Source of the DNA: Diphasiastrum complanatum
Lineage: Eukaryota; Streptophyta; Lycopodiopsida; Lycopodiales; Lycopodiaceae
Assembly: GCA_029204225.1 (NCBI GenBank)
Contig: CM055106.1
Coordinates: forward strand, 48,435,337 to 48,499,336
Length of the DNA stretch: 64,000 nt
Reading direction: 5' to 3'
The translations under genes were made by a program, and so were the position numbers. The notes beneath the pieces are model-generated. The model was not told the origin of the DNA, ran no database searches, and saw only the letters and a program-made list of their open reading frames with translations. This document shows, one piece after another, positions 1 to 49,822 of the stretch. Each line of letters begins with the position of its first letter. Positions within the stretch are counted from its first letter, which is position 1.

Positions 1-3000
1 GACGAATCTACAGTGGGATGAAAAAGACCCCACTTCTTTCATAAGGAAGATGAAGGATCTGTTTCTATCACTACATAACTCTGGAGCAGAGAACGTTGAG
101 TCAGCTGAGAAGCAGCTCACGTACCTATTGAGAGCCTTACCCAGATCAATCCAGACAACAAGGACCCTGCTCGTGAAGGATCCTACCATGACCCTTGAAA
201 AGGCGATTGTCGAGATTCAAGAGGAAGTCGAGGCCAGAGAACACCTCAATCACATGGATGGTTCTGACCAGGCCCTCTATGGCAACATAAAAAAATCCAA
301 GAAACAATTTAAGCCTAAGAGGAAGTCGAATCAAAGGCAGGATCGTGACCAACAAGCATAGGAGATCAACAAGAGCAATTGGAAGACCAAAGGGAGGTCG
401 AAACAACAAGGTGTAGACAAGAAGACTTGCGTGAGATGCAGAAGAGATGGGCATACAGTAGATACTTGCTGGCTCAATCCCAAGATTGAGTGTATCCATT
501 GCCACAAGAAGGGTCATGCAGCCATGGATTGCCGCACAGAACAGACAGGAGAACAAATCAGCACAGAGCAGACAAGAGAACAGCATCCTATGTCAAGGAG
601 CCCGAGAGCTCAAAAATGGGTGAAGAAAGAACGAACAGAAACTATTCGACCACCTATATCTGTGAAGACGTGTGTGCAGCTTCAACATTTGACACACATG
701 AGGACATTCTAGACTTAGGAGCCACCTCTCACTTCATGACATCAAGACGAATAATGTCTGATTTTAGAAGTGCAGATCCTTCAAGATTCATAGTTCTTGG
801 AGATGGATCTAAGCATCAAGTGAACGGTATTGGTTCACTATGGCTCAACACTAATGGCAAAGACAAACGACTTGAAGATGTTCTGTTTGTGCCTACTCTG
901 CAACAAGACTTGCTCTATGAAGCAAGAATAGCAGATGCAGGGATGCATGTGACATTTTTTGATGAAGTATGCAACGTGATTGACAAAAGTACCAGTACAT
1001 TGATCGCTCAAGGTAGAAGAAAAAAAAACCTATATCATCTGAAGGTATGCCTACCTGCAGATCAGGTGCATCAGACTCATGATGACCAGCCTGACACTCT
1101 GTGGCATAGAAGACTCTGCCACATGAACTCAATGGCACTTTACCAAGCAAGCCATCATGGAGCAATAACAGGGGTCAGCATCTCGAATGCAACCAGTTCG
1201 ACCACCTGTGATGCATGTCTGAAGGGTAAGATGTCACACACTCCATTTGTCAAAGACTCCTACAAAACGACCAAGATTATGGAGTTAGTGCATTTTGACA
1301 TCTGTGGGCCTTTCAATGTGATCTCAGTAGGAGGTTCAAAGTATTATATAACCTTCATTGATGATTATAGCAAATTTTCCAGAGTGTAATTTATTCAGAA
1401 TTAATCTGAAGCAATCGATAAGGTCACAGAACACGTGAATTGGGCTGAAAGATGTACAGGCAATAAAGTAAAGCAGATTAGAACAGATCGAGGTGGCAAA
1501 TACATCTTGAATCGCTTCACTGACTCTACAATGATTGTGGCATCATTCACATAAGCACTGCAGCCTACAAACCACAGCACAATGGTATTGTTGAACGAAA
1601 GAACAGGACCCTGATGGAAGTAGCTAGATGTATGATGGCCTACTCGAAAGCTCCAAGGGTACTGTGGGCTGAAGCAGTAGCTATATCCGCATACATCCAA
1701 AACCGAACATGCAAGTCTGGTATTCCTCACACGACACCACATGAGCTATGGTGGGGTAGAAAGCCCAACCTGTCTCACGTTAGTGTCTTTGGCTGTGCAG
1801 CTTATGCACATATTCCTGATAAGCTTCAAAAGAAGCTTGATGAGAAAGTCGAGCAGAGATTTCTGGTAGGTTATGACAAAAATTCATCATACTACAGAGT
1901 CTACATGCCAGACACGAACACTGTGAAAATAGTGAGGGATGTCAGATTTGATGAGAGCAGGACAATGGCCAATGACATGGACATTGGAGCCATTACCACA
2001 TAAGCGCAAGACTGTCAAATGCAAATGGTCTTCAAGCTCAAATACGGACCAGATGGGAACATCACGAAATACAAGGCAATATTGGTAGCGAAGGGATTCT
2101 CTTAGAGATATGTTATTGACTACTCTGAAACCTTCTCTCCTGTCATCAAACATTTGTCCCTATGTCTGTTATTTGCATATGTAGCAGCTTATGACCTCGG
2201 GATCCACATTGTGGACGAGAAGACAGCCTTCTTGCATGGCGAACTAGACAAAGAGGTCTATATGGATTAACCCCCAGGATTTGTCTCGAATTCACTTCCT
2301 GACCATGCATGCAGAATGCACGGAAGTATCTACGGTCTGAAATAGTCAGCCCAACAATGGTACAAGAAGAAAGATCAAGCCCTGAAATCATTAGGATTCA
2401 AGCCTCTGTTGGCTGATTTCAATGTATATGTCAGAGTTACAGATGGGCAGATCATCATTGTGGCTGTATACGTGGACGACACTTTGATACTTTGCAGGAG
2501 TGAGCAGCTGATTGCTGAGGTGAAGACATACATCTCGAAACATTTCAAGATCGTGGATCTAGGAGAAGCCAGGTGTTACCTAGGCTTACAAATTGAAAGG
2601 GACTATGAGGGAGGTAAGTTGTACCTTCACCAGTCCAGATACACCCAGAAGATCCTAGAGGACTTTGGAATGTTGAACTGCAAAGGAGCGAACACTCCAA
2701 TGCTCGCAGGGACGGTGTTGACAAATGATGACTGTCCAAAGATTGAGGAAGAGAGAGAACAAATGCAGCTCACACCTTACAGGAAGCTGATAGGATCACA
2801 GATGTACTTTGTAGACAACACCCACCCTAATATTGCTTATGCAGTATTCAAAATGAGCCAATTCTGCACAAATCCAAGCTCAACACATTGGAAGATTGCA
2901 AAACGAATTTTGCAATATCTTCAATCAACAAGGGATTATGGATTGTGCTATTGTCGTGGTGCACGTTTCAGGATACTTTCCTACAGTGATGCTAGCTGGG

Positions 3001-3862
3001 CATCTCTCAAGGACGATTGTAAAAGCATCTCAAGAGGGTGCACCATCGCATCAGGAGCAGCAATTCTATGGGTCAGCAAGAAGCAAACCATCGTGGCCCA
3101 GTCATCTTGCAAGGCAGAATATGTTGCAGCAGCAAAGATGGCCAACAAGATAATCTGGCTAAGGCAATTTCTAGACGAATTGGACGAAACAAGGAACGAG
3201 CCTCAGGTCTTGCAGATGGACAACACCTCTACAATACATCTAACAAAAGATCTCGTGTTCCATTCCAGAACGAAGCACATTGTGATCAAGTACCACTTGA
3301 TCAGGGATCTAATTGAAGAGAAGATGCTGCAGACCACCTTCAGCGGAACGAAAAATATGGTTGCTGACATCTTCACCAAAGCCCTGGACAAAGGACTCTT
3401 TGAGAGACAGAGGAGCATGCTTTGAGAGGGAGCTGAAGAAACAAAATGTTTCTAACTACAAAGCCTGCTAGCTATCAGCCCTCTGCCTAGCATGAAACAC
3501 GAAGACAAACGGTTTGCGAACACGACAGTTAAAGGAGACGAACACGAACGGTTCACGAACACGAAAGTCAAAGGAGACGATCACGAACGGTTTGCAAACA
3601 TGAAATATTCACGAACGAGAATCTTTTGCGGTATGGCACGAGAATCTTTTGCGGTCCAATATGAGAGAAAGGTAGAGGAGCAAAATGAAACCAACGATGG
3701 AAACGGAACCAACAATGGAAATGAAACCAATAATGGAAAGAAACCACAGATGAAAACGAAACCAACGAAAAAAACGAAACCAACGTCGTGAAACCTTCTC
3801 CTGCCCTTCACGCTCCAAAGAGTACCAACGAGATCATGCAAGTACCCAGAAGTACAAATGTC
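1..3862 (+). mobile_element. Ty1/copia element C1, internal region (fossil, left end outside window)
   Basis: The order of parts is copia-type: gag end, two CX2CX4HX4C zinc knuckles (near 430-535), protease with a D-GATSHF-like site (near 715), GAG-pre-integrase with HRRLCHM and CxxC (near 1100-1220), integrase (near 1290-1900), reverse transcriptase with YVDDTLIL (near 2470) and RNase H ending at about 3425. Two zinc knuckles in tandem are unusual for copia gag. The element is broken, with several breaks in its reading frames, so it looks like an old inactive copy. A second copy of the same family lies on the minus strand at 19873-22680. The 5' LTR is not in the window; the 3' LTR is 3863-4554. 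Confidence 0.9.
3490..3790 (+). repeat. Short tandem repeats between the C1 pol end and its 3' LTR
   Basis: Three imperfect units of about 35-42 bp containing CGAACGGTT and AAAGGAGACGA lie at about 3500-3600. An A-rich stretch with repeated GAAACCAAC follows to 3790. The same units occur in inverted orientation in the second C1 copy (about 20690-20815), so they belong to the family and were not gained locally. Confidence 0.7.
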
Positions 3863-41319: not shown

Positions 41320-41880
41320 CTACCCTTCCTCACCTCCAACCATCAGCATATGAGTATCTACACTCAAATATTCAGTCTCTTTATCAAGAGTATCAATCAA
41401 GAAATGACTGATATCCTTTATGGAATGTTCAGTAGTGGAGGATGAAGGGATCTCAGTATCAAGAATCAAAGTATTTGACTCTACTAGGATTTGTACCAAA
41501 AGGAAAAACACAAATCCGGTTTGATACTCTAGAAAATGACATTTCCGATTACAAACATTACATTTACTGGAATTCTTAAATTGATCAAAAAGTTTAGTGT
41601 ACATCCTGTCTACCCGCTGCTTATAATGAGAAAAAATATGTACAAGATCAATGAAATGCATAAACGACAAATTAGACGCAGAGATTGGAGGGGTACTTAC
41701 TATATCCCTGAATCTGATAAACTGGTCATAAAAAACATTAGGACTCCGTTGTGCTATACTGAACACATTTAGAAAAGGCCGGAAGAGGGACTTGAAGTAC
41801 TCTATGCGCTCAGTTATACCGAACTCAAAGAGAAAACTAGACAACAAACGTTCACGACTAGGATCAGAGGAGGAAGCCAT
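41320..41880 (-). CDS. Leftward gene of unit A, unrecognised CxxCxxxC protein, partial
   Basis: Minus-strand frame from ATG at 41880 (MASSSDPSRERLLSSF). It shares about 55-60% of residues with the protein starting at 47778: FIRFRDIVS, LSFMHFIDLVHIF, KQRVDRMYTKLFDQFK, then CNVCNRKCHFLEYQTGF, then DISHFLIDTLDKE. The cysteines (CxxCxxxC) suggest a small metal-binding site. Similarity to the other copy ends near 41335, where unrelated sequence begins, so this unit is cut on the left. It is divergent to the H3-like gene at 42731 and shares its control region. No known family is recognised. Confidence 0.6.
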   Translation of the reverse strand: MASSSDPSRERLLSSFLFEFGITERIEYFKSLFRPFLNVFSIAQRSPNVFYDQFIRFRDIVSTPPISASNLSFMHFIDLVHIFSHYKQRVDRMYTKLFDQFKNSSKCNVCNRKCHFLEYQTGFVFFLLVQILVESNTLILDTEIPSSSTTEHSIKDISHFLIDTLDKETEYLSVDTHMLMVGGEEG

Positions 41881-42730
41881 TGACTAGTATTGGATCTATG
41901 CGAGAGGGGAGTAACCGAAGATGAAGGGACAACAGTATGCACGCACAGAAGCGATATGTACGAACAACGTATCGCTCTTGTGCGCGTAAAGAAACATAAT
42001 ACAATAAGGGAACAAACAATTCGCGCACAGAAGCGATATGTGACAAAAATAGATATAAAATACGTGCGCAGAGAACCAATATGAGGGAAACCTGGGAAAG
42101 TCGAGAAAAATAGGTTCTCGGGGATCATGTCCTTTATAGTCATCTCACACATGCGAGTCAACGGTCAACTGCCCATGTGTCATATGATGATTTGTTGAAA
42201 ATTGTCGACACGTGTGAAGTCATACAGAATGCATGTTTCTAATTCGTTGTCGCTTGACACGTGTCGTAGGATGATTCGCAAAAAATATTCCACATGTGTG
42301 AATCCGTATCAGAGATATGTGTCATATTCGGATTGGTTGCCGCTTGACACATGTCATAGGATGATTCGAAGAAATATTCCACACGTGTGAAGCCATGTGT
42401 CAAAATTTGATTCAATGGAGTGTGACACATGTTGATGGCTGATTCGTTAGTTTTTAGACACGTGCGGACGGCACGTGCAACCACACACGTGCGAAAAAAT
42501 CATTTACACATGTTCGCGAGCTCGGAGGTAGTTTCACTTGTTTTCTTTCGAGTTTCGTGCCATATCGCTTCTTTGCACGCCTTCTTTTCTCCGCTATCTC
42601 CGTCTCCTTCTGTATGTGCACAAGAGCGATATCACCGTCGTACATATCGCTTCTGTGCATAGTTAGTTTTTTGTCTCGTTGTTTTTGTTTTCCACACTCG
42701 CACAAGAGCGATACGTCCTATACTGCCCTC
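41881..42730. promoter_or_regulatory. Divergent control region of unit A with GCGATAT motif arrays
   Basis: Motif GCRCANAAGMGCGATAT or variants: left group 41942-41957 (+), 41971-41986 (-), 42022-42041 (+), 42064-42083 (+, weak); right group 42562-42580 (-), 42616-42632 (+), 42644-42660 (-), 42699-42716 (+). Between the groups is a block of ACACGTGT/ACATGTGT sites with two about 90-bp units (starting near 42249 and 42339) containing CGCTTGACACRTGTCRTAGG. The last right-hand motif ends 14 bp before the ATG at 42731. The same layout occurs at 47779-48471. Confidence 0.8.
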
Positions 42731-44481
42731 ATGTCTAGGGTCAAACAGAACCAGAGGGATTTCTTCACTCCTGGGGCTGTATCCACTAGTACCCTAAACC
42801 CTAAACCCTAAACCCTAAACCAAGCATAACATGAGCAAATGGCTCTCTGAGATTAAGAAATATCAGAGATCTACCTTGCTCCTAATACCCAGATCCCCCT
42901 TCTACAAAACTGTCTATCTGATTACCCAAGATAATCTGTAGAGTGCTGTCAGGTTCACACTTGGAGCATTGCAGTGTTTGCAGGAGTCCGCGGACGACTA
43001 TTTGGCTCTTTTTTTTGAGGATTCGTTTTTGCTTTCCATCCATGCCAAGCGAGTGACCATAATGCCCAAAGATTTTTAAATCCTATATAGAATGAGGGAG
43101 AGATTTTCTAGACTTCACAAGGGTGAACCCGATGCTCCCCAGGACAAACCCCTTGATAGGACCAACCTACCCACCAAGAGGCCTCGCAAGCAACCTGCCC
43201 CCAGAAGGAGCAAGCCATCCTCTTCTTAGGCTCCCAAAAAGGTCCGACGTATGACCCTCCAAGCTTCCACATCTGGAGGTGATGGAATTGTAAATATTGT
43301 AGCTCTTGATACTGTGGTTGATTCAGCCACAAAAATTTTGGACATTTCCTCCGTTGTAGATTCTCTCCCGCCTCCTCCCATTAATGTCAAACTTGTAGCA
43401 TATTTAGATTTTGATAATTATTTAAAGTTTGAGAAAGATATTTCAGATGCGATAGATAGTATCGGCATGCCAATCCTCTTCCAAATAGAAGAGATTGGTT
43501 TTACACTTGATTTTAGAATTCCAGATTGTTTGCAGATGAAGGATAGAAGGGCCTCTATTAGCAATCCAGTGATCGAGGCTGGTCTCCCCTTACTGCAATA
43601 TGATATAGCAAGGGATTCCATGAAAGAAATGTCGGTTCTCAGCAATTTTTTTCTGCAAGGCATCAAGGACAACAACGACACTTTGTCGCACTGTATCCTT
43701 GGTGCTTGCTCACCTGCTGTGAAGTTTTTGTTGATGCATATCATACCAAGTATGTCTAACTCTTTACTTGTCAAGTTCATTACTTGTCTACTTCTTTACT
43801 TGTAATTACTGTATCATTTATCTAATGAAATTATTCATGATTTTTTGCAGTGATCACTGGAGCTTAATTGTAATTTCTGTAAAAATCACAAATAATAATA
43901 TCGTGTAAAGATGAATTCTACTAGCAACACACATAAAGATATTGACTCGTTGCTACCGGAGATATGTAAATATTTTCCAATAGAAAAATCCCACGACAGG
44001 GAAATGTGAAATTGTGAGCATTGAGGTAATCATTGAACATTTCTGGTGTATTTTGGTTTATCATCATTGTTAAGCGACAATACTCTCATCCCATTATTAA
44101 TCAATTGAATGTATTGCAGACACCCCAACAAAATGACTCATTTAGTTGTGCTTGGTGTACTCTATACAATGCAAAGTTATTTTTCAAGTGGTACAATCTT
44201 CAGGAGGATGTTGATATTTCAAAGGTGAATTATTAGCCCTTTCTATTTTATCTTCATGTAAACTATTGTTTGTTATTAATATTCATCTAATACAGTGTTT
44301 ATTGCAGTTTGCCCTAGGTGACTATACTACTGGCGAAGTGTACAAATTTCGACAGGAGATCATTCTTAGTCTATTGGCCAGGTCAACTACTGGACCAAAG
44401 GCTGATGTTGGGCTGTCTAAGCCAGACGATGTTCAGATTTTAAATAAGGCTGGGCAATTTGTAAATATCGAAGCTAAATAG
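42731..44481 (+). CDS. Histone H3-like protein joined to Ulp1/C48-type cysteine protease, unit A (degraded)
   Basis: The start MSRVKQNQRDFF resembles the H3 tail (ARTKQTARK). From 42834 come LSEIKKYQRSTLLLIP, ALQCLQESADDYLALFFED and SIHAKRVTIMPKDF, which match H3 aN, a2 and the loop before a3. A basic linker (TKRPRKQPAPRR) leads into the frame at 43251-43805, with VIEAGLPLLQ and SVLSNFFLQGI as in the N-terminal part of Ulp1-like proteases. After probable introns come DHWSLIVIS (near 43856, catalytic His), QQNDSFSCAWCTLYNAKLFF (near 44128, Gln and Cys) and the end YKFRQEIILSLLAR. Histones pack DNA; C48 proteases remove SUMO or process viral-type proteins. The gene is no longer fully open. Conserved partner at 48472. 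I know of no described H3-C48 fusion. Confidence 0.75.
42792..42821 (+). repeat. Interstitial telomere-type repeat (CCCTAAA)4
   Basis: Four perfect CCCTAAA units plus CC, the plant telomere repeat, inside the N-terminal coding part of the H3-like gene of unit A. It is absent from the same place in unit B. Confidence 0.95.
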
Positions 44482-44841
44482 ATAGACATAGAGAAATAGA
44501 ATTATAGAGATAAAGACATATAGAAACAAAATCATTTCAAACAGATGTACAAAATCCCCAAATTCGGGTGATCTTTTATTGAATACAGATACCAATTTGT
44601 ACAATTGATTGTATGGATTTTCATTGTTCTTCTACAATGTTAATATTTGTTGGAAGATCCTTGCAGGGTGTTGTGTTTTCCTATCTTTAATCTGCATGAA
44701 AGATAAGCAACTTGTTAATTTCTCTATTCTCTAATAAAGTTAAATATATGATCATTGACTGATTTACAAATCAAAATTAAAATCTTACAAGCTTTCCATT
44801 GATAATAAATCTGAAGTATTCTGGTAGAATTTCATTGTGCA
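44482..44841. other. 3' region of unit A, convergent to the BAH-like gene
   Basis: No gene. The region 44482-44690 still matches the sequence after unit B's protease (49823-50075), with TTTATTGAAT, a TTGTTC-TACAATG stretch and AGATC-TTGCA in common, so the repeated unit extends beyond the coding end. Confidence 0.6.
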
Positions 44842-45996
44842 TTAAGACCGCTCTTGTCTGATATAACTCAAGCTCCAATGATCCTCCACTATAATTGTAG
44901 TTAGCATATCTTCATTGTTAAAAATGTGGACTTCTTTTCGATTTGTGTGATCATCCATTTGAAGGTCTTGATTGAGTGACATCCATGTCCCACTTATTCG
45001 TTTCCATCTCTGGTAACTGAATGTAAGACTAAGCATTTGTCTTGCAATGCAATAACGAAATATCATACATGATTTTTTTATTCTACATTCAATATCTCCA
45101 ACTGCCTTGCATTCCCAACCCACATCCATCAGATCTGAAAGAGTGTCATCTGGCACATCCTTACAAACAAATAATGTTGGTGTTCTACGAACATTTGCAT
45201 TTGAAAGAAAAATCTACAAATACATATAAGGATAGGAACCAACTTAATCTATTGACTTTTGATCCAGTGCTAGCTTTCATTGAGTTTTTCAAATCTAATA
45301 GTAATTTGCATCTAAAAGATTCTGACACCATACTATCAAGTGCAAGCCATTCATCACTTCCAAAATGTGGCAGTGGTATATCTTCAAGCTTTCCGAAACC
45401 TCCATGCATATCTGGAATGTACTTGGGCTCATAGAAAAATATACCACTATCTTCAAGCTCCTTAGAAGTTCTTCCTCTGTATTGTAATTTTCCAATATCC
45501 GAATGAATCACATCCAATATACCTGCTAGGGATTGTGCTGGCTCCCATTCGCTTATGCTGGATGGATATAAATCTGCAAGAATGCAATACATATATGATA
45601 ACTGATATGATTTCAACAAGTTTCAAAAGCATGAATGTTATAATATAGATCCCAAATTTTTTTAAACTTACAGTTACATTTTTGGCGATCATGAATATTG
45701 AAATCTTGTAGATACAGCTTTGAATGCATATACACATGCTGAACCAAGACTTCTGAGATTGATTGCCCTCCTGAAGAAGTCCTAAAATCAAGGATCTTTG
45801 CTTTCCAATATGATTTGAATGTCATCTTTGCTTTCTTTTTTGGTCTAAACAAGCCTTTTGAGGATGGATGCAGTAGAACCCATGAGTTTTTTATATATCT
45901 TGTTGGTTTCCAAAATCTGGCATCATCCTTCTCATTGTGAAGAATCACCGATTCAATTTTAGATCTTGGTCTCCTGGCCATATCGATTGGTTCCAA
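44842..45996 (-). CDS. Unrecognised multi-exon gene, possibly BAH-domain-like
   Basis: Exons read right to left: 45980-45690 (MARRPRSKIESVILHNEKDD; SWVLLHPSSKGLF; YWKAKILDFR; VLVQHVYMHSKLYLQDF), about 45575-45215 (SSISEWEPAQSLAGILDVIH; FFYEPKYIPDMHGGFGKLED; SDEWLALDSMVSESFR) and about 45170-44842 (LMDVGWECKAVGDIECRIKK; EDHWSLSYIRQERS). The pattern of a 'WKAKILDF...VLVQ..Y' segment followed by 'I.DVI...FFYEPKY' recalls BAH domains, which read chromatin, but the match is weak and by eye only. Exons are open and splice-like sites flank them. It is convergent to the H3-protease gene of unit A and lies downstream of the unit B leftward gene. Unit A lacks this part. Confidence 0.45.
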
Positions 45997-46222
45997 AGTT
46001 TAGCGCCAAATTCTCAAATCTATGAAATGCCAAATCGACTCAATGTTATATGATACTTATTCAATGTGAATGGATAACTGGACCACAGTAATAACATGTG
46101 GTAACTATGCTTACTGTCTAACTATGATGCATGTCACCAATTCCTATGCATGTGATGACTTACTGTTGGCAAACCTGTGTAGTTTGAAATTTATGAACAT
46201 ATTAACCAGTGGGGTTAAATAA

Positions 46223-47778
46223 TTAACTAGAGACAATGTCGTCGGGTAGATTCACATGTTTGGGGCAGACACTATCCACCAATAGCATTTTCCCATCCTG
46301 CCTGGCGGCAAATTCAAATTTTTTAAAAGTTAATTCTAATAACTTTATTATTTCTAAATGTGCATTATCCTTGTTTCCACTAAGTTCAATATAAGTAGAG
46401 TACAATGAATAATGGGAGCTCGTTAAAGGAACATTCCCATCAGTAAAACCTAGAATGTTCAAAACATAAGATCTTTTAACAAAAATGACCTTATTCATCT
46501 TAACAAATTTATGTCCTCCTAGGTAAAAAGATAAAGCTTTAACTGCCCTTATTAGAGTCTCCCCAACTGGGCTCAGTTTCGAATGAGCAATACAGATCTC
46601 ATTCTTTAAAAAATGCCTAAGATAGTGGCCAAGTCCACTATCCCTCTGGAACGAGAAAGCATGTTGTCTGTAACCACTTTGTCATCAATTACGAGGGCAT
46701 CCTGCAATAAAAAATAAGTTTAAAAATTAAACATTTAGTAGTTAACAACATTCTTAGGCAAGGAAGTTAAAACACTTACACATTCTTCATCATCAATAGC
46801 AACCAGATCCAAATGATTAATATTATGGCCACCTACTGAAGAAGAATCATCTGTGAAATGCATTAATGATGGACGAGGGAAGCCCATTTGAGATTGAAAT
46901 GCCATGAATTCTTCATCAAATGGTATGCTTTGTCCATGCTCAACAAAATTTGACAAAGCTTTCGTTAGGCATCCTTCACTGATCATAAGTCCATCCTCAT
47001 CATCATAATCAATTCCAGGCACAAGGTCATCTATTTCAAAATCTACAATGTCGGAGAATTCAAAAATTGTGCTAGATAATAACATAGCACCTCATTCTCA
47101 CGATAGTCAAAGAACTGACACAAATCAGCTGTAGTAAAATATATATCGTCATTTACATGATACACAGGAAATTAAAAAGACATTTAGATTCATCTCCAGA
47201 CATTGATTCATCAGCAATAATATTAGAGCCAATGAAAGAATCCCGAAGCACTTCAGTATTAAAAACAAGAAAATCACTATCCTTATCAAAGGTGTCGATA
47301 AGGAAGTGACTAATGTCTTGAAAGGCTGATTGAACTGAGGATGATGCAATCTGAGGATCAGAAACAACAACTGCCTCATCATTTGGGATTTGAACTAACA
47401 TGGAAAGTATGAAACCAGTCTGGTATTCAACAAAACAACATTTCTCCTTACAGTAAGGACAATCGAAGTGCTTTTAAATTGCTCAAACAGTTTAGTAAAC
47501 ATTCTATCCAGTCTCTGCTTAAATTGTGGAAAGAAATGGACAAGATCAGTAAAATGCATGAAGGAGAGTGGACCTATGGAGATAACATGTATACTGACTA
47601 TATCCCTGAATCTAACATAGTGGTCAAAAAATACTTCAAAATTGGGTTGCGCAATCTTGAAAACATGTAAATATGGGCAAAATAGGGTGTGAAAGTAGTC
47701 TAAGTTTTTAGTAACTCCAAACTCAGTAAGAAATGCACTTAGGTTGCTGTCATGGCTAGATTCGGAGGACAACACCAT
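46223..47778 (-). CDS. Leftward gene of unit B, unrecognised CxxCxxxC protein
   Basis: Starts at ATG 47778 (MVLSSESSHDSNLSAFLTEF). It shares FVRFRDIVS-like, LSFMHFTDLVHFF and KQRLDRMFTKLFEQFK stretches with unit A (41880-41320), then a CPYCKEKCCFVEYQTGF-like motif near 47440 and DISHFLIDTFDKD. Further acidic exons follow: 47085-46735 (DIVDFEIDDLVPGIDYDDED; MAFQSQMGFPRPSLMHFTDD) and 46498-46223 (FVKRSYVLNILGFTDGNVPL; KKFEFAARQDGKMLLVD). Whether these last exons belong to the same gene is uncertain. No family is recognised. The frame is not fully open. It diverges from the H3-like gene at 48472. Confidence 0.5.
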
Positions 47779-48471
47779 CGGTCTCGGGCAGATATCGCTC
47801 CTGTGTGTGAGATAAGCAAACCGGAGAAAAGAGATTGTAAAGAACGCGCACAAGAGCGATATGTATGGAGGATAGCAATGGGATATCGCACTTGTGCACA
47901 GGTAGATGGCAAGCAACAACAGATAACACAAATAGCGCACACAAGAGCGATATGCCGTGAAAATCGAGAAAAAAAACAAAAAATTAATCGGGTTGCGTGT
48001 CTTTTATAGGAAATTTTTCACCAACGGTCAACAGACACGTGTTGGCTCCCCATTGTTTCATATGTTTACGCGCGTGTGAAATGACAACTGGACATGTGTC
48101 ACGTGATCATTGCTTGAAATGGCAACACGTGTCACTACCATACGAGCTGACAGTTCACACGTGCAAACTACGATATAAAACTCACAATTTACGAGGCATT
48201 TTTTTCACATTTTTTTTTTGCTCCGCATATCGCTCTTGTGTGCCACTAGCTCATGTGCATTTCTACCCTTTCATTCACACAGGTCCAATATACCGTACAC
48301 AGTCTCCGCATATCGCTCTTGTGTGACCCTTTACTATATACTCTGGTACTACTCATACTACTTGGGCACAGGTCTAATATACCCATACAGAATTTCTGTA
48401 CATATCGCTTGCACCCTTCCCCTTCCAATCTCGCTCATCGCGCACAAGTGCGATATCTCTCAAACTACCTC
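47779..48471. promoter_or_regulatory. Divergent control region of unit B with GCGATAT motif arrays
   Basis: Left group at 47792-47810 (-), 47845-47864 (+), 47883-47900 (-) and 47935-47954 (+); right group at 48226-48245 (-), 48308-48326 (-), 48401-48414 (-) and 48439-48458 (+). Weaker CACAGGTCTAATATACC-like copies lie near 48280 and 48366. In between, near 48026-48165, are ACACGTGT-type sites. The nearest motifs lie 13-14 bp from the ATGs at 47778 and 48472. This is the same layout as in unit A although most of the surrounding DNA differs. Confidence 0.8.
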
Positions 48472-49822
48472 TATGGAGAGGAAAAAGCAGACAAAGAGAG
48501 ATTTTCTCTCTGTTCATACTTCCTTAGCCCCTGCCGTTGCCATAAATCCTCCTACTCGAACTAGAAGGCGCAACCGCAACGGGTGACTCTCTGATATTCG
48601 AAAATATTAGAGGTCAACCAATCTGTTAATTCCAAAAGCTCCATTCTACCGTGTTGTCCGCCACATCACTAGGGAAGATCTCGATAATATAGTTAGATTC
48701 ACACCCGGGGCACTTCAGTGCCTTCAAGAGGCTGCTGAGGATTATCAGAGACTTTTCTTTGAAGACTCATTTTTGCTCGCTATACATGCCAACAGAGTTA
48801 CAATTATGTCTAAATATTTTCAACTACTATATAAGATGCGGGATAGATACTCCAAATTACATATGGGTGAGCCATCTGCTCCCAGACCTGATCCAATAGA
48901 TAGGACTGACCTCCCGACCAAGAGGCCTAGGAAGGAGCCAACCCCCAAGAGAGCCCCAAAGAAAGTTAGGAGGGCTATTATTACAAACTCTTTGTAATCT
49001 CACCTTGTTGATAATTTAGATACGGCTGCACTAGATTCGGTTGCTACAAATAGATACCAAGTAAGACAATTTAAATGCTTCTTGCTGTTTAAAGCTTTGT
49101 CATTGGCATTATCAATGGAAATAGTTCTCAGAATTGCAGCTAATGGACTCTCTATCTTATTTTGCAGTGAGCACTAGAGTTTAAACCTAATCTCTATTCA
49201 GAGATCTATAGATAATGGTATTAAAGTGTTTTGTGTAAAGACGAACCCAGCTCCAATACGCATAAGGATATCGGTTTGATCTTGCCAAATATATGTAAAT
49301 ATATTCAGGTAGGTGTTGGCCAGGCAACTGAATGGCAGATCATCAATTTGGAGGTAAATTATATCATTTTTAACAACATTTTCAAATCAGCATTCTAATG
49401 TATTTGTTTAGTTCTAATACATTCTGTCTCTTAATTGATGTCTTGTTGTCACCCCAGCAAAATGATTCATTCAACTGTGGGTGGTACACTTTGTATAATG
49501 CAAAGTTATTTTTTCAGTGGTTCATCCTTTGACAAGATGTTGGTATTTCGAAGGTAATTTATTCCTTTTTTTTTTTTGGAATCGTGATTATTTTTTCTAT
49601 TCTGTAATTTTACAAAAAATAACTAATATGTGAATATTCTATCTTGTAGTTTAAACTTCTTGAATAAACATCAAGCCGGGTGTACAGATTTAGGCAAGAA
49701 ATTATCCTGAGCATACTGGCGAGGGCAAGGCTTCAGCCACCCATTGTTGATGATGGTGCTAAGGATGATGTTATTATACTAAATAAAGATAAAAAAAATA
49801 TAGATAGCACAAGACAAATATA
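48472..49822 (+). CDS. Histone H3-like protein joined to Ulp1/C48-type protease, unit B (degraded)
   Basis: The start MERKKQTKRDFLS is close to the H3 tail ARTKQTARK, keeping R-x-K-Q-T-x-R with the lysine at position 4. The fold region near 48595-48850 has RSTNLLIPKAPFYRVVRHI, RFTPGALQCLQEAAEDYQ, LFFEDSFLLAIHANRVTIM and LLYKMRDRYSKLH; compare H3 RKSTELLIRKLPF, ALQEAAEAYLVGLFEDTN and AIHAKRVTIMPKDIQL. A basic linker (KRPRKEPTPKRAPKKVRR) follows. The protease part is shorter than in unit A but keeps SSNTHKDIGLILPNICKY (near 49250), QQNDSFNCGWYTLYNAKLFF (near 49460) and YRFRQEIILSILAR (near 49685). Introns are likely. The gene is not fully open. Similarity to unit A ends near 50075, where a CACTA fragment begins. 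Confidence 0.75.

Follow-up and report, generated by a model that had tools for sequence, protein, structure and literature searches.

The question raised by this locus is whether a histone H3 and a SUMO protease of the Ulp1/C48 type are joined in a single protein and, if so, what kind of genetic unit carries such a protein and for what use. The window, by which we mean the whole 64-kb stretch of Diphasiastrum complanatum DNA that was analysed, lies on contig C15 of a 1.74-Gb genome. Within it, positions 42731-44481 contain an H3-like tail and fold, a basic linker and a Ulp1/C48-type protease, so that both domains are seen at the place and in the order given by the original prediction. The gene can be described by a spliced model of four exons on the plus strand, separated by GT-AG introns. 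Exon 1 (42731-43749) covers the H3-like tail, the H3 fold (42828-43097), the basic linker and the N-terminal half of the protease, and is open in other copies. Exon 2 (43851-44025) holds the protease motif NDHW with the His and the Asn region and has stops in the window copy, exon 3 (44120-44224) holds TPQQ with the Gln and SFSCAWC with the Cys, and exon 4 (44308-44481) encodes the C-terminal part and contains the stop. The junctions read ...YHT/NDHWSLIVIS, ...CEIVSIE/TPQQNDSFSCAWC and ...VDISK/FALGDYT, the first two of which (exon 1/2 and exon 2/3) were also read in other copies of this gene, here called H3-C48.

Translated across shifted frames, the window gene starts with MSRVKQNQRD..., followed by KWLSEIKKYQRSTLLLIPRSPFYKTV...IHAKRVTIMPKDF, the basic linker and the protease-like part. 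It does not form one reading frame, as insertions and deletions cause frameshifts, both in the tail and towards the 3' end of exon 1, and in-frame stops are present in the frame of the H3 part and linker. Telomere-like CCCTAAA repeats of the plant type (42791-42821, plus strand) lie inside the H3 tail, where the frame is shifted, and are part of the damage to this copy; they amount to four and a half units. Because of the CCCTAAA stretch, the frameshifts and the stops, the window gene is a decayed, dead member of a large family.

The gene belongs to unit A (41337-46356), a stretch common to other copies; here it is truncated, as its left part and the outermost portion of its right end are missing. 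Divergent from H3-C48 lies the start of gene 2 (MASSSDPSRERLL..., 41320-41883, minus strand), which has no Pfam match, and between the two is an intergenic region (41884-42730) in which AGCGATAT motifs cluster and inverted repeats occur. Gene 4 (44842-45999, minus strand; ORFs 44842-45213, 45185-45622 and 45613-45999) has no Pfam match over the cut-off. Next to unit A, unit B (46358 to approximately 49800, the right limit being approximate) is a more diverged relative with a relative of gene 2 and an H3-C48 remnant. Its H3 tail (MERKKQTKRDF), fold and linker (48473-48997, plus strand) contain two in-frame stops, and 48473-48967 matches the H3 part of another copy, L036, at 1.4e-60. Remnants of protease exons 2 and 3 (49160-49575, plus strand) are linked to unit A by shared repeats, and no repeat linking the two units was seen for the N-half of the protease in the repeat comparisons within the window. 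A structure prediction from the single sequence of the unit B H3 piece was poor (mean pLDDT 50.7). The anatomy of the element in the window and of its fusion gene can be regarded as practically certain.

The original prediction placed both domains in the same coding stretch. This is true of other copies, in which they share one open exon, and not of the window copy, which is broken into several frames. At least 45 matches to the stretch were found in the genome (best 40 of 2452 first-look candidates). A single open exon of 364 amino acids from the Met spans the H3 tail, the fold, the linker and the N-terminal protease half in L002, and L036 and L038 likewise contain H3 and the protease half in one open exon of 327 and 331 amino acids, respectively, from stop to stop. 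L034 has a stop in the H3 tail. Both the H3 part and the N-terminal protease half of L036 served as queries against the genome, and the best 150 of 7086 and the best 150 of 3876 candidates, respectively, were compared. A protease match follows 151-203 nt downstream on the same strand in 51 of these best 150 H3 matches, on many contigs. This number is a lower bound, because each list has only the best 150, and some of the matches are near-duplicate loci. Any other arrangement of the two parts within 3 kb was seen in none of the 150. A stop-free frame of at least 310 amino acids was found in 21 of the 150 scored H3 copies. Thus both the single open exons and the constant spacing and strand speak for a fusion in one gene, and related copies in the same genome, which were checked for the two parts being always separate, do not show this. 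Among the stop-bearing H3-C48 matches of the same 150, a count by hand gave TAG in about 110 of 111, TGA in 8 and TAA in 3; such an excess of TAG would fit the decay of CAG codons via deamination of methylated CHG sites.

The H3 part of L002 matches the Pfam Histone profile with 71.5 bits (cut-off 26.4, 9.3e-20), and the top PDB matches of its first 159 residues are H3 chains (2.2e-18). It resembles histone H3 and CENH3 in its whole fold, the signature IHAKRVTIMPKD and the KQT at the start of the tail, but differs from both by the additional C-terminal protease and an altered end of the C-terminal helix, and from H3 by one extra residue in loop 1. The fold is 52-56% identical to H3.1 and 46-54% identical to the plant CENH3 sequences used for comparison, with which it shares a Pro at the position of H3 R63. 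In a tree with these CENH3 sequences, the H3 folds of H3-C48 and of a second type described below each form their own well-supported group. A firm CENH3 origin of the transposon H3 was considered and is not upheld by this tree, which does not separate it from an origin from H3. The CENH3 of the host itself was not identified in the genome search, in which the matches listed were taken up by H3 genes and repeats.

The protease part was scored in spliced form against the Peptidase_C48 profile (cut-off 20.7) in two copies, giving 28.7 bits (E 1.4e-6) for L036, with X at its stop, and 13.1 bits, under the cut-off, for L006. Each of the two domains thus exceeds its Pfam cut-off in at least one copy, and 71.5 bits against 26.4 for the histone and 28.7 against 20.7 for the protease exclude chance. 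Searched singly, the window protease pieces 43230-43802 and 44030-44233 gave no C48 match, and PDB matches to Ulp1 proteins were weak (E 0.085 and 0.17). Over the genome the C48 profile gave only 3 matches (best 150 of 520 candidates), which may or may not belong to the H3-C48 family; introns interrupt the profile in the H3-C48 genes. In hand alignments, three of the originally predicted active-site residues can be made out in some copies, namely His in NDHW, Gln in PQQ and Cys in SFxCxW, with the exceptions that L006 has Asn for His, that L036 has Tyr for Cys and that PQQ is interrupted by a stop in L034 and L038. At the position of the predicted Asp, the copies read have Asn, within KMNS or KMNF. 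The loss of His or Cys in several copies may be later damage.

What carries this gene is a multi-gene DNA transposon with inverted ends. To define its limits, ten places were aligned with 20 kb each and the ends were read; these represent fewer than ten independent copies, because those on C1 and C2881 are about 100% and two on C16 99% alike (C16a and C16c). The termini are inverted and begin with CATTAGAGGAGTT, and were searched for among the best 40 of 1048 and the best 40 of 923 candidates. No target-site duplication is visible in five pairs of facing ends, approximately 4.5 to 8.7 kb apart, of which the two shortest (on C1 and C2) may or may not contain H3-C48. One clean insertion site was shown for the family: the element at C23:23985409-23992482, with H3-C48 matches inside, is inserted in a copia retrotransposon. 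When its two flanks are joined, they give a gap-free alignment of 95 bases (81% identity) with the copia element found in the window at 2979-3073. The inverted ends, this empty site and the many copies bear out the prediction of a repeated and mobile unit, with the correction that unit A is a part of a larger transposon.

The gene order in one copy on C16 is a transposase-like gene (+), gene 2 (-), H3-C48 (+) and gene 4 (-). For the transposase-like protein, 13138 first-look candidates exist in the genome, the best 135 of which were scored. Its longest exon matched nothing in Pfam at E up to 10, and two transposase-like ORFs gave no credible match to PDB; we therefore infer the role from the place and abundance of the gene. 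Although conserved, the gene gave no family match by which the transposon could be assigned to a named superfamily. Pfam searches with pieces of gene 2 and gene 4 gave no match over the cut-off, and a single-sequence structure prediction for the start of gene 4 was poor (mean pLDDT 36.5).

In addition, a second type of element carries an H3 gene without a protease. Over the genome, Pfam Histone gave 153 matches (best 150 of 6325 candidates), 13 at approximately 164-165 bits and the others listed at 82.8-109.5 bits. From our reading, the 13 are canonical H3 genes, with a single exon, on C11, C5 and C23, nine of them on C11. Ten loci of the 82.8-109.5-bit class, chosen mostly for long open frames, were fetched; three were H3-C48, including L034 with its stop in the tail, and seven were type 2 (L032, within L049+L032+L050, and L029-L031, L033, L035 and L037). 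The longer locus that was read, L049+L032+L050 (C4157:9401-16200, 6.8 kb), contains relatives of the transposase-like gene (37.7%, 7e-68), gene 2 (31.5%, 8e-13) and gene 4 (31%, 5e-10). Its H3 gene has an MARTKQTARG start, about 300 residues rich in Gln and Pro, the H3 fold at the end and one in-frame stop. No C48 part was found in the 6.8 kb of this locus nor in the 1.8 kb read at each of the remaining six type-2 loci, and the ends of type-2 elements were not found. The type-2 transposase-like gene matched nothing in Pfam at E up to 1 and had no close relative in viral contigs. Because type 2 shares three other genes and H3 with the first type, without C48, the H3 gene appears to be the common part; these comparisons suggest that the transposon group has the H3 variant as a core gene, to which the protease seems to have been added as a module.

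Selection was estimated by comparing the window-like subfamily (L002, L006 and L007) with L034, L036 and L038, leaving out unit B and taking L034 up to its frame change. Between the subfamilies, dN/dS of the H3 fold is 0.10-0.19 in the 8 of 9 pairs where it is computable (Fisher p 2.7e-9 to 6.8e-15 over nine pairs), and that of the protease N-half is 0.09-0.13 in the 4 of 9 pairs with dS not saturated (p 2.7e-12 to 1.0e-18 over nine pairs), ratios that are rough because dS is near saturation. Within the second subfamily, the fold gives 0.10 for L034 against L036, 0.09 for L034 against L038 and 0.30 for L036 against L038. Within the window-like subfamily, the values are 0.52, 0.26 and 0.77 for the fold and 1.24, 0.39 and 0.32 for the protease half, these higher ratios being expected of copies that decayed after insertion. 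The low ratios between the subfamilies thus argue that purifying selection acted on the H3-C48 protein during the time in which its lineage was mobile. As an observation apart, the divergence of L034 (C11:29717401-29719300) from L036 at silent sites is larger for H3 than for the protease half, so that L034 may be a mosaic copy.

Mobile genetic elements with their own core-histone genes are known among viruses, as in the histones of Marseillevirus and Medusavirus and the H4 of bracoviruses, but here the carrier is a chromosomal plant DNA transposon. Ulp1 domains on plant DNA transposons have also been described. According to a review, the KIU or Kaonashi genes of non-TIR MULE (VANDAL) transposons are anti-silencing genes of the VANC kind that have captured a Ulp1 domain, and they are reported to cause methylation loss on related elements via short motifs in non-coding parts (PMC13317346). 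The present family is similar in that an Ulp1-type domain is encoded by a plant DNA transposon and short motifs are clustered in non-coding parts; it differs in the fusion of the Ulp1-type part with a histone H3, in its inverted ends CATTAGAGGAGTT without visible target-site duplication and in a transposase-like gene that has no Pfam match and hence no MULE transposase match. Membership in VANDAL is not supported because of the latter, and the inverted ends also depart from the non-TIR structure of the KIU MULEs. Likewise, a study on grapevine reports CACTA and MULE families that carry an ULP1 protease domain, but histones are mentioned zero times in its main text (PMC2528002). In titles and the beginnings of abstracts of the open literature, we recognised neither a transposon-encoded histone H3 nor an H3 fused to a SUMO protease; a search of this scope does not prove priority.

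The data above demonstrate the fusion at the level of the family, its repetition, a protein that was under selection and its location within a transposon whose ends are inverted. Starting from these points, the explanation that we consider best, with a probability of roughly 40%, is that H3-C48 is an anti-silencing protein of the transposon. The H3 part would take the fusion protein to chromatin, either as a partner of H4 or through a tail that mimics that of H3. There, the protease would remove SUMO from silencing factors. The transposon would thereby counter its own silencing, as is reported for the Ulp1-bearing VANC (KIU) genes of other plant transposons (PMC13317346). In favour of this are the open exons with the fusion, the profile matches, selection, mobility and the presence of H3 also in type 2. 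The KIU precedent is joined by the clustering of AGCGATAT: 11 of the 12 sites on both strands of the 64-kb window lie in 41950-42651 and 47792-48409, between divergent genes, and the expected number for the window as a whole is approximately 2.5. This clustering fits a candidate element-specific target. Against an anti-silencing role stand the Asn at the Asp position and the His or Cys lost in several copies, the C48 score under the cut-off in L006, one of the two spliced copies, the transposase-like gene that has no Pfam match and so lends no support to VANDAL membership, the type-2 elements that manage without a protease, and dN/dS values of 0.34, 0.46 and 1.02 for the protease half among L034, L036 and L038.

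Rather less probable, though worth weighing, is a role in transposition itself, in which the H3 fold would bind, package or bend element DNA or steer integration to certain chromatin, and the protease would trim element proteins or free the histone part. The H3 gene would here be a basic need, as it seems to be because it is common to both element types and the protease is not. Among the best 150 H3 and best 135 transposase-like matches, the transposase-like gene lies upstream on the same strand within 10 kb of H3 in 14 pairs, which thus keep order and strand, and is arranged otherwise in 2, with 0.23 expected by chance. The link to a transposase protein and the cleavage site are, however, putative.

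Somewhat more doubtful again is the suggestion that the H3 part stays outside nucleosomes as a decoy, its tail mimicking that of H3 and drawing off chromatin readers or modifiers. The tail start MARTKQTARG, read in one type-2 copy, would suit such a mimic, as would the MDRRKQTRRD or MERKKQTKRD with which the type-1 (H3-C48) tails start. Conservation between the subfamilies is nevertheless strongest in the fold (0.10-0.19) and not in the tail, where dN/dS of the window-like subfamily against the others is 0.22-0.41 where computable.

That the gene is a neutral captured fragment, a passenger without function, is improbable. Plant transposons often carry captured pieces of genes (PMC13317346), and the fold ratios of 0.26-0.77 within the window-like subfamily would agree with neutrality; the ratios of 0.10-0.19 between the subfamilies, with the Fisher p values given above, and the frames still open in 21 of the best 150 copies contradict it, and it was rejected. 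Two separate neighbouring genes or an assembly artefact could be read from the broken frames of the window copy alone, but the single open exons and the same spacing in 51 of the best 150 matches on many contigs leave this next to no probability.

Returning to the anti-silencing reading, transposons that act against silencing are already known, including Ulp1-bearing ones (PMC13317346), and histone H3 is the addition that we did not recognise in the literature searched. With slightly less confidence than in that reading, and thus tentatively, we propose an undescribed group of plant DNA transposons with a core H3 variant that would serve to lay down or disturb their own chromatin, one branch of which would have joined a SUMO protease to this histone, so that a single protein might reach silent chromatin and strip SUMO from it. 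The family offers many natural, selected H3 variants with odd tails, C-termini and loop 1, which are useful for questions of what H3 tolerates. If the fusion acts as proposed, this would be a transposon that fights silencing from within the nucleosome, and it would directly connect SUMO with the silencing of plant transposons.
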